Shown here: positions 1,739 through 13,191 of the stretch, one piece after another
Layout: every line of letters starts with the position of its first letter
Numbering within the stretch: position 1 is the first letter of the stretch
Source: a bacterium
Lineage (GTDB): Bacteria > JAJRZV01
Length of the DNA: 15,157 nucleotides
Assembly: GCA_024275095.1 (NCBI GenBank)
Contig: JAJRZV010000066.1
Coordinates: 1 to 15,157 of the forward strand
Direction: 5' to 3'
Program-made: the position numbers and the translations under genes
Notes under the pieces: generated by a model
What the model was told of the DNA's origin: nothing
Databases searched by the model: none
Seen by the model: the letters and a program-made list of their open reading frames with translations, nothing else

Positions 1739-1984
1739 ATGGTAAAAATCCGCCTCAAGCGCTTTGGTAAGCGTAACAGACCTACATACAGAATTGTGGT
1801 GACGGACTCCCGCTCACCGCGCGATGGAAGAACTCTTGATGAATTGGGATATTATATTCCTTATCGGGAGCCTTCTGTACTTAAAATTAACCTTGAGGCC
1901 TATAAACAGTGGATTAATAAAGGCGCTCAGCCCACCCGCGCCGTGGAAAATCTGATTAAAATTCAAGAGCGAAATGTCCAATGA
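1739..1984 (+). CDS. rpsP: 30S ribosomal protein S16
   Basis: 81 residues, the usual length for bS16. The N-terminus MVKIRLKRFGKRNRPTYRIV is the family hallmark, followed by the conserved segment with DSRSPRDGR and the GYYIPYREP region. bS16 binds 16S rRNA early in 30S assembly. The frame is open further upstream to a TTG at 1712, but the ATG at 1739 has a good ribosome site (AGGGGGA at 1727-1733) and gives the canonical N-terminus, so I use it. It heads the cluster rpsP-khpA-rimM-trmD-rplS. Confidence 0.97.
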   Translation: MVKIRLKRFGKRNRPTYRIVVTDSRSPRDGRTLDELGYYIPYREPSVLKINLEAYKQWINKGAQPTRAVENLIKIQERNVQ

Positions 1985-2012: not shown

Positions 2013-2246
2013 ATGTTAAGGGAGATGGTGGAGCAAATCGCCAAAGCTATTGTGGATCACCCGGACCAGGTAAGGGTGAATGAAGTGGTGGGTGAACAGA
2101 CGACCGTGATTGAACTGAAAGTGGCCAAAGAAGATCTGGGCAAGATCATCGGTAAGGGAGGCCGGACGGCCAAGGCGATCCGGACTCTCCTGACCGCCGC
2201 GTCCACCAAGGACAGCAAAAGGGCGGTGCTTGAAATTCTTGAATGA
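2013..2246 (+). CDS. khpA: KH-domain RNA-binding protein KhpA (YlqC family)
   Basis: 77 residues, a single KH domain with the nucleic-acid-binding GKGG loop at residues 47-50 inside [15 protein letters not shown]. KhpA proteins are small RNA chaperone-like proteins, in Gram-positives working with KhpB/Jag, and are classically encoded between rpsP and rimM as here. A strong ribosome site (AGGAGGG, 2001-2007) precedes the ATG. The stop overlaps the rimM start as ATGA, indicating translational coupling. Confidence 0.95.
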
Positions 2247-2761
2247 GCGATGAGAGGTACGTCGAGGTCGGCAGGGTTGTATCTCCTCATGGACTGAGGG
2301 GATGGTGCGTGTGTCGCACGTACAATGAGGAGTCTGAAACCCTGCGTACAGGCCTTGACGTCCTCCTCGTAAATCATCAAAAAAAAGAAGAAAAATTTTT
2401 AATAGAGAAGGTACAGCGTAAAGGGAAAGGTGTTTTTCTTATCAAATTTCAAGGAGTTGACAGCAGGGAACAAAGTGAAGCATTAAAGGGTGCAAAACTC
2501 CTTGTTTGCGAAGGTGCTCTCTCACCGCTTGCCGAAGATGAGTATTACTGGATTCACCTCATAGGTTGTAAGGTGCTCGATGAAGAAATAGGAAGTATTG
2601 GTGAGGTTGCAGAGATTATATCCACGGGTGCCCATGATGTTCTGGTAGTGAACGAACCCGGTGGTCAGGAGATTCTTGTTCCTTTCGTGGATGAATATGT
2701 GAAGGATGTAAATGTTAAGAGAAAAGAAATAACGGTAAGAAATCTCGATCGTCTCAAATGA
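2243..2761 (+). CDS. rimM: Ribosome maturation factor RimM
   Basis: 172 residues, normal length. The N-terminal RimM barrel begins with the signature [12 protein letters not shown] (about residues 9-20). The C-terminal PRC-barrel half contains [12 protein letters not shown] (about residue 100) and [12 protein letters not shown] (about residue 147), where the family has its conserved VPF and DVD-like strands. RimM helps assemble the 30S head and binds S19. It overlaps khpA upstream and trmD downstream, each by an ATGA, so the three genes are probably translated in a coupled way. Confidence 0.95.
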
Positions 2762-3534
2762 TCACTTTTCACATTATTACTGTTTTTCCTCAATTTTTCC
2801 CCGAGCCTCTTTCCACCGGGTTGTTTGGAAAGGCACAGCAAAAAGGGATTATTAACATCGCACTTTACGATTTGAGAGACTATACCACGGATCCCCACCG
2901 GGTTGTGGATGATGTGCCTTATGGAGGCGGTGCTGGAATGGTGATGAAGCCGGAACCCCTTGCACGTGCCGTGGATGAGGTAAAAAAGCGGGCTCCAGAT
3001 GTTTTTGTCATCAACCTTTCTCCCCGGGGACTTCCATTCACACAAAAAGTAGCGGAGACCCTTGCAGAAAAGAAAAATATATGCTTCCTTTGCAGTCGGT
3101 ACGAAGGAGTTGATGAAAGGATTGTAGAACACCTCTGTGATGCGGAATATTCCATCGGTGATTACGTTTTACACGCGGGTGAAACAGCAGCGCTGGTCAT
3201 TATTGATGCGGTTTAACGACTGCAACCGGGTTTTCTGCACACCCGGGAGTCAATAGAGATTGACTCTTTTTCATCCAAAGGGATATTATCATTTCCTCAG
3301 TACACAAGACCTGCAGAATTTAGAGGGTGGAAGGTTCCCGATGTGTTATTATCTGGACATCATGAGCGTATTGCCAGGTGGAGGCGCAAGCAGGCTCTTC
3401 GAACCACCCTGCTCAGACGTCCAGATCTTCTCAAAAAGGCCAGGCTCGATGAACAGGATCGAAAACTTTTACAGGAAATTGAAAAGGAGTTAAACAGGGA
3501 GGTCAACAATGGATATCATCCGCGAAAAAATTGA
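2758..3534 (+). CDS. trmD: tRNA (guanine-N1)-methyltransferase TrmD, interrupted by an in-frame TAA at codon 153
   Basis: TrmD methylates G37 of tRNAs reading CNN and similar codons, prevents +1 frameshifting and is normally essential. The frame has 258 codons, normal length, but codon 153 (3214-3216) is TAA. Numbering agrees with E. coli TrmD without gaps: the SPRG (89-91), RYEGVDER (114-121) and SIGDYVL (132-138) knot elements precede the stop. Arg154, Asp169, [15 protein letters not shown] and [18 protein letters not shown] follow it in the same frame. The N-terminal 152 residues alone would lack catalytic Arg154/Asp169 and the C-terminal tRNA-binding domain. Residues 113 (Ser for Gly) and 139-140 (His-Ala for Ser-Gly) are unusual. 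The distal end overlaps rplS by 26 nt. Whether this is a sequencing error, a nonsense allele or readthrough cannot be decided here; a pseudogene is possible. Confidence 0.9.
3214..3216 (+). other. In-frame TAA inside trmD (codon 153)
   Basis: The codons read GAT GCG GTT TAA CGA CTG CAA CCG GGT. Homologues carry a sense codon between V152 and R154 (Ser in E. coli; TCA to TAA would be one base). The frame is kept on both sides with no gap against E. coli TrmD, so one base explains the stop. The downstream base is C. Confidence 0.9.
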
Positions 3535-3982
3535 AAAAAAATATATGAAACAGGTGCTTCCTGATTTTCGACCGGGAGACACAGTGCGTGTACACTTCAA
3601 AATCAGAGAGGGTAATCGCGAACGCGTACAGATTTTTGAAGGTGTCGTCATTGCACGCAAAGGCAGTGGCGTTAATGAAACCTTTACCGTGAGGAAAATT
3701 TCTTATGGTGTTGGTGTGGAAAGGGTTTTCCCTGTTCATTCCCCACGAATTGAGAAGATCCAGATTGTCTCCAGAGGACGGGTAAGACGGGCAAAACTTT
3801 ATTACCTGAGAGAGCGTGTGGGTAAGAAAGCGAAGCTTCAGGCGATGAGAGAGGCTGATATTTCAAGAGAGCGCGTGTATTTCGAGCATCAGGAAGAAGT
3901 GCCTGCTGAAGAGAGTGCTCCCCACGTCCAGGAAGACGAAACCAAAACAGAAAAATCCCCGGAGGAAAGCGGGGAAGGCTGA
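3509..3982 (+). CDS. rplS: 50S ribosomal protein L19 with an acidic C-terminal extension
   Basis: 157 residues. The first ~111 are standard bL19: [33 protein letters not shown] is split over residues 20-52, then [18 protein letters not shown] and the basic [21 protein letters not shown] end. L19 sits at the 30S-50S interface. Typical bL19 is about 115 residues; here about 45 extra residues rich in Glu, Pro and Ser form a disordered acidic tail. The ATG at 3509 has a good ribosome site (AGGGAGG, about 3496-3502) located inside the end of trmD, so expression may partly depend on ribosomes finishing trmD. Confidence 0.95.
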
Positions 3983-11824: not shown

Positions 11825-13086
11825 TCACAACTCTCCTGCCAGCCACAGTGGTTTGAACGTTATTCGGGTATTTCCGCGTTTTGCCCTTCCTCCAGTGTCC
11901 TTTGTGAGAACAAAGGCTTTTGAAGGTGAATACCTCTGAATAAAACTGCTCATGCCTCTGGGAACGTTTAAATGAGCAATCTCTGAAAATTTCACCTCCA
12001 CAGGAACGCTCCTGTTCAGCACGAAGTCGACCTCTCCCCCTGTCTTTAACCTCCAGTAGCCAATTTCCGTTCCATAGGGCTGAGACTTCAACAGTTCCAG
12101 AAGGACAAAGTTCTCAACAAGTGCCCCTGTATCTTCCCTGAACCTGAGCGGTGAAAAATTCTGAACCGCCCAATTCCTGAAGCCCGGATCTATGAAATAC
12201 ATTTTTTAGAGTTTTTTGTAACCTCTTTGCGTGGATTTTTTTGAAAAAGCTTTTAGAACGTAGATTATGTAAGTGAGTTCAAGAACCTTAAGATACCTGC
12301 GCACAGTGTCTCTGGTAATTCTGAGATCTGAAGAAAGAGAGAGAACGTTGAGGGAAGAACCTGTCCGTCCGCCAAGTAGTTTCAACGTATCACTGAATTT
12401 CTCAGGTTCCTTAAGTTTAAAAACTTAAGTTTAAAAAGCGGGAATATATCCCTGTAGAGGTAGGATGTGAAAATCTCTCCCAAGAGCCTTTTTTTAACAT
12501 CCCGATTATTCTCCAGAACAACTGCTGGATATCCTCCATAGGTCAGATATTCTTCAAGATAAGCACTGATGGATTTATATGAAATTTTCTTCAGGTGGGC
12601 CAGGAGGTCATTTTTCCCCTTAAACAGCAGAAGTTCTTTGAAGGAAAGCGGTAAGAGCACAAACTCTATTTTCCTTCCAACCATGGCTTCTCTAAACCTT
12701 TTCTTCATCTCAAGGCTTGAAGAACCTGAAACAATGAGTTTGATTTTCCCCTTCAGGTGGTCAACTGTGAGTTTTATAAATCTGTCCGGGAAGGGGTGAT
12801 ACTGTATTTCATCAACAAAGAGGTAACTGCCCGAAGGCAGTGAAGATGGAAAAGAAAGGTCTTTCAGGAGTTCAAGATCCTCAGGAAATTCAAGGTCATA
12901 AAAGAACACCCTTCCTTTTCTCTTTTTGATTATCTCCTGTGCGAGAAGGAAAAGAAGAGAAGTTTTGCCTGCCTGTCTCGGTCCTGTAATAACAACTGCC
13001 TCAGGTCTTTTGAGAAAAGGCTTTACTGCCCCCAGCAGGTCACGTGGCAGCAATTTCCTCTGGGTAATCTCCTCTACAAGTATCAT
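11825..13086 (-). pseudogene. AAA ATPase with DUF4143, broken by a 14-bp duplication and an in-frame stop
   Basis: From ATG 13086 the frame gives ITGPRQAGKTSL (Walker A, about residues 33-44) and YLFVDEIQYH (Walker B), then the family segments SGSSSLEMKK and TYGGYPAVV, as in ATP-binding proteins with a C-terminal DUF4143. At 12437-12410 a tandem 14-bp duplication shifts the frame, and translation ends at 12382. Removing one copy restores a continuous frame (FKLKEPEKFSDTLKLLGG, then a helix-turn-helix-like stretch RITRDTVRRYLKVLE) until an in-frame TAA at 12208-12206. Behind it KMYFIDPGFRNW and the nuclease-like core GGEVDFVL...VPVEVKF continue to 11825. At least two lesions make it very likely non-functional. 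It is divergent from an intact relative at 13752. An upstream TTG at 13146 is a less likely start. Confidence 0.85.
12410..12437 (-). repeat. Perfect 14-bp tandem duplication inside the ATPase pseudogene
   Basis: CTTAAGTTTAAAAA occurs twice with no gap (12410-12423 and 12424-12437, plus-strand reading). Fourteen is not a multiple of three, so it shifts the ATPase frame. The copies are identical, which suggests a recent replication-slippage event. Confidence 0.9.
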
Positions 13087-13093
13087 ATGCTGG

Positions 13094-13113
13094 TTGTACA
13101 GTGTGGTGTACAA
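13094..13113. promoter_or_regulatory. Perfect inverted repeat upstream of the ATPase pseudogene (operator-like)
   Basis: TTGTACA (13094-13100), 6-bp spacer GTGTGG, TGTACAA (13107-13113): two perfect 7-bp arms centred about 17 bp before the ATPase start at 13086. The size and position suit a dimeric repressor site. There is no T run, so a terminator is unlikely. Confidence 0.45.
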
Positions 13114-13191
13114 AAAGTAAAAAAGTTTCAAGAGTGTCTCCAGCAAATTCTTTGTTGGCTCCTCGCGTAATCCTTTCCCATAACCTTGTAG

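Follow-up and report, generated by a model that had tools for sequence, protein, structure and literature searches.

The trmD gene of the draft genome studied here carries an in-frame TAA at codon 153, and the question that it raises is whether this stop belongs to the organism or to the assembly. If the stop were real, it would call the need for TrmD into question, or would show readthrough in an essential gene. The window, by which we mean the whole stretch of DNA analysed, is an entire contig (C29) of 15,157 bases from a 2.45-Mb draft genome in 136 contigs that is 97% complete. This genome is the sole representative of its phylum in the genome collection compared, its closest relatives there share only the domain with it, and the best GTDB homologues are 45–56% identical. 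The fragmentation and isolation of the draft suggest that it was assembled from a metagenome. The gene order around the stop is rpsP, KH protein, rimM, trmD and rplS, and the neighbours of trmD are all intact (Table 1). The name rpsP was assigned from what we take to be the usual composition of this operon.

Table 1. Features of the window and in-frame stops in three genes elsewhere in the draft genome
Feature	Position	Strand	Basis
rpsP-like gene, intact, opens conserved operon	1739..1984	+	ORF and position
KH-domain (YlqC/KhpA-like) gene, intact	2013..2246	+	ORF; name by inspection
rimM-like gene, intact, overlaps trmD start	2243..2761	+	ORF; name by inspection
trmD (tRNA guanosine-37 N1-methyltransferase) frame, one interruption	2758..3534	+	PF01746 and TIGR00088 span the stop
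TAA in frame at trmD codon 153; consensus error most likely	3214..3216	+	Sequence; comparable stops elsewhere in the assembly
rplS-like gene, intact, overlaps trmD end	3509..3982	+	ORF; name by inspection
AAA_14/DUF4143 ATPase, second interrupted gene in the window	11828..13146	-	PF13635 spans the TAA; PF13173 matches the N-terminal part
In-frame TAA in sole prfB (RF2)	L184:8711, contig C21		Sequence
In-frame TAA in sole dnaE	L184:1991, contig C21 (same contig as prfB)	-	
In-frame TAA in single-copy rplC (ribosomal protein L3)	L176:754, contig C11		

Apart from its stop, trmD does not look decayed

From its start at ATG 2758 the trmD frame reaches the TAA, and beyond it the frame is open until TGA 3532-3534. 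With the stop read as X, the read-through frame matches PF01746 over residues 37-235 (1.3e-62, 211.5 bits, cut-off 27.3) and TIGR00088 at 266.6 bits (cut-off 195); the stop is residue 166 of the frame used in the Pfam search, and frame and homology go on to residue ~250. A phmmer search matched 27 distinct PDB TrmD sequences, with alignments crossing the stop. Residues 5-245 of the query correspond to residues 10-250 of the E. coli chain 1p9p, two spans of equal length, which agrees with the gap-free alignment to E. coli TrmD around the stop that the original prediction had described. Its further claim that Arg154 and Asp169 are preserved also held: both lie in frame downstream of the stop, and among 109 TrmD homologues R154 is invariant while position 169 is D or E. 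The genome contains a single trmD, and the second copy that the original prediction had proposed to search for was not found in it. By sequence the gene belongs to the TrmD family, and its product is predicted to have m1G37 methyltransferase activity.

The stop had been put forward as the only drastic lesion in an otherwise intact gene, and conservation bears this out. At 58 near-invariant columns (at least 90% conserved) trmD departs three times, at G113S, G140A and G161H, and the other TrmDs (n = 109) depart at 0-10 of the same columns. Because three departures fall inside this range, trmD, aside from its stop, is within the spread of intact TrmDs. Two of the three replaced glycines lie in 99%-conserved columns, and G>T errors are not the explanation for these replacements. 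Position 153 itself is variable among the 109 homologues (V, A, T, S, G, I, C or M), so the residue lost in trmD cannot be fixed by homology.

A comparable internal stop was absent from trmD in the 57 other genomes that have the gene. One of these, G008, was flagged for a TAA, but there the codon falls where the domain match ends (approximately profile position 186). The G008 frame (L227) ends soon after ERWRRG and is overlapped at its end by a second frame, possibly another RNA methyltransferase domain; it appears to be a TrmD either short by nature or divergent at its C-terminus.

Similar isolated stops recur in unrelated genes of the draft

We scanned 1.05 Mb (43%) of the 2.45-Mb draft, fetched in stretches, using a dicodon model trained on the genome's own long ORFs and looking for a strong coding signal on both sides of a stop in one frame. 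Candidates were chosen by coding potential and inspection, partly by eye, and ordinary gene borders were discarded; RsfS/RlmH and other neighbouring gene pairs that share one frame were dropped as such borders. About 16 stops remained, that of trmD included, each isolated and in frame within a gene that is intact apart from it. The other interrupted genes are dnaE, prfB, rplC, proB, leuA, sufB, the NiFe-hydrogenase small subunit, an aldehyde ferredoxin oxidoreductase (AOR), M16 and M50 peptidases, two SAM methyltransferases and the DUF4143 ATPase, with an enolase-superfamily protein and an acidic repeat protein as weaker cases. Leaving trmD aside, a Pfam domain match runs across the stop in ten genes (prfB, dnaE, AOR, proB, the two methyltransferases, M16, hydrogenase, M50 and DUF4143), and in rplC, leuA and sufB a PDB or NCBIfam alignment does so. 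Similar isolated lesions are thus present in unrelated genes, essential single-copy ones included: dnaE and rplC are single copy, with one TAA reported inside each by an independent HMM search, and prfB is the genome's only RF2 gene.

As a control, the same scan of a smaller sample, 302 kb from two other draft genomes, returned gene borders only and no lesions, against 4.6 predicted from the rate in this draft (p about 0.01). A survey of ABC transporters showed no inner stops in the matches listed, which cover ~11 kb of the genome, too little for a rate. A mutY-like match reported with one TAA proved to contain its gene's ordinary terminal stop.

These counts change how the trmD stop is to be read. 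The original prediction had the anatomy right and had named sequencing error among its options, but it rated the site as interesting on the ground that a decaying gene would show more damage. That ground for interest falls away, as single stops in intact genes recur at ~15 per Mb of this assembly.

The second interrupted gene of the window, the AAA_14/DUF4143 ATPase, has two lesions: its frame meets a TAA at 12208, and it is shifted by a 14-bp tandem duplication at 12410-12437 (-), in which TTTTTAAACTTAAG occurs twice. This gene is either a real pseudogene or the site of two assembly errors.

The spectrum of stops is compatible with G:C>T:A substitutions

The isolated stops comprise 9 TAA, 5 TAG and 2 TGA. 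From the codon usage of the genome, G:C>T:A changes would be expected to give TAA, TAG and TGA in proportions of 0.53, 0.25 and 0.22, with which the observed numbers are compatible (p = 0.63); A:T>T:A changes would yield a similar mix. In four cases (proB, AOR, hydrogenase and M16) homologues fix the lost residue, and in all four it is Glu, corresponding to G>T. Glu codons make up 21% of the one-step routes to a stop here, so that four Glu out of four has a p of about 0.002, an argument that rests on few cases (n = 4). The neighbouring repeat of the acidic repeat protein has Gly at the matching place, which would again be G>T. Two genes show no clear fit to the G:C>T:A class: homologues have Arg at the dnaE site and either Arg or Glu at the sufB site. 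For trmD, Ser, a minority residue at position 153 (11 of 109 homologues), is the only homologue residue type one step from TAA, and the route would be C>A, of the same class. The dominant change is probably G:C>T:A.

The trmD stop is very probably a consensus error

From the assembled sequence itself, we infer that the trmD TAA is very probably a draft-consensus error and belongs to a larger set of base substitutions spread through the assembly. This reading is likely because comparable single stops interrupt many unrelated genes of the draft, indispensable ones included; were all the interrupted genes true null alleles, the cell would not be viable, which favours errors over real alleles as the source of the assembly's stops. 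The organism most likely has a sense codon at position 153 and an ordinary full-length TrmD; rather than reflecting new biology, the stop most probably arose in sequencing or assembly. Such substitutions could arise if oxidised guanine (8-oxoG) in the template or library DNA led to G:C>T:A changes, and low read depth would let them reach the consensus. If a stop results from ~9% of such changes within coding sequence, the draft may contain, as a rough figure, one wrong base per few kb. G>T artefacts from oxidised guanine are documented for sequencing libraries (PMC8748355, PMC12390751). A literature search brought up no paper on premature stops or consensus errors in genomes assembled from metagenomes.

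The same class of change would be produced by real mutation, if the sampled population, or a mutator lineage whose 8-oxoG repair is faulty, carried recent nonsense alleles, and a shallow assembly had picked up low-frequency G:C>T:A changes from single molecules. The spectrum fits a MutM/MutY-type defect, MutM (PF01149) was not found in the draft genome, and no MutY-family match exceeded the curated cut-off (best 164.5 versus 286.5 bits). However, MutM was also absent from 6 of 14 control genomes, Bacteroides and Thermotoga included, and only 7 of the 14 reached the MutY cut-off; this lineage may repair 8-oxoG differently, or the draft may be incomplete. Moreover, no living cell could carry fixed stops in dnaE, rplC and prfB, and hundreds of substitutions per genome, the load that this account implies, would be far above that of known mutators. 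A mutator population is thus a weaker explanation than consensus error, and we consider it unlikely. Loss of TrmD in earnest, offset by another m1G37 enzyme or by changes in proS, is less plausible again and in our view very unlikely. The original prediction had called TrmD essential in the bacteria tested, a statement that calls for some qualification: in E. coli, trmD mutants that lack m1G37 are viable with a growth defect, and can regain growth mainly by duplication or mutation of proS (PMC8643618). It follows that TrmD loss alone is not absurd, but the same account cannot serve for dnaE, rplC and prfB together, and it leaves the other stops unexplained. Stop aside, trmD is as conserved as its intact homologues. 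A compensating Trm5-type enzyme, also among the original suggestions, was not recognised: the matches to the Trm5/TYW2 profile PF02475 in the genome, a profile that also matches in bacteria that use TrmD, were instead PrmA-like, TrmN6-like (itself interrupted) and deacetylase-fused methyltransferases.

Readthrough or recoding of UAA, by which full-length TrmD would be made from the gene as printed, would suit the conserved, in-frame halves of trmD and the inner TAA of prfB, dnaE and rplC, and is to our minds just as improbable as loss of the enzyme. As a general rule UAA recoding is excluded, because TAA terminates 241 of 663 long ORFs, where recoding would need UAA to be absent or rare as a terminator, and because three genes (prfB, dnaE and the hydrogenase gene) have it both inside and at their end. 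Inner TAG and TGA occur too, and the surroundings of the stops show nothing in common. The genome encodes both RF1 and RF2, though prfB itself has the inner TAA, and prfB keeps a canonical CTT-TGA-C frameshift site, just before L184:8480. A suppressor tRNA, which the original prediction had proposed to search for, was not found among the 43 sense tRNAs of the draft, none of which has a UUA anticodon, in a set that is incomplete, with some expected tRNAs (Ile, Asn) missing. More doubtful still is that the lineage tolerates in-frame UAA, UAG and UGA in essential genes through generally inefficient termination or readthrough, in which case the internal UAA of the RF2 gene could make RF2 limiting, with feedback on termination. 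Least credible of all is a split or shortened TrmD, in which the 152-residue half would be active by itself or together with a C-terminal piece that has its own start. The stop does lie near what we take, from the fold, to be the end of the SPOUT domain. Against this, R154 and D169, which we assume with the original prediction to be important for catalysis, fall after the stop, the next ATG, GTG or TTG in frame is GTG 3343, ~42 codons downstream, and none of the 109 homologues is split at this position.

Read as a consensus error, the trmD stop is a warning, as this genome would have a detectable false stop about every 65 kb. Gene losses, pseudogenes and recoding claimed from it need a read-level check first.

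Comparison with known systems

The lesions here resemble the oxidised-guanine artefacts, G>T or C>A, in that every resolvable case is a Glu codon changed by G>T and the stops as a whole are compatible with G:C>T:A. The artefacts described in PMC8748355 and PMC12390751 are rare read-level errors in deep data, whereas a consensus error of this kind would need low depth. The RF2 gene has the programmed frameshift known from prfB; unlike that site, the TAA further downstream is an extra, ordinary in-frame stop, as in trmD. With the TrmD family (SPOUT class), the gene studied here shares the whole domain, both R154 and D169, its single copy and its place between rimM and rplS. It differs from the family's one uninterrupted frame at codon 153, which is TAA in the draft and which we judge to be an error.
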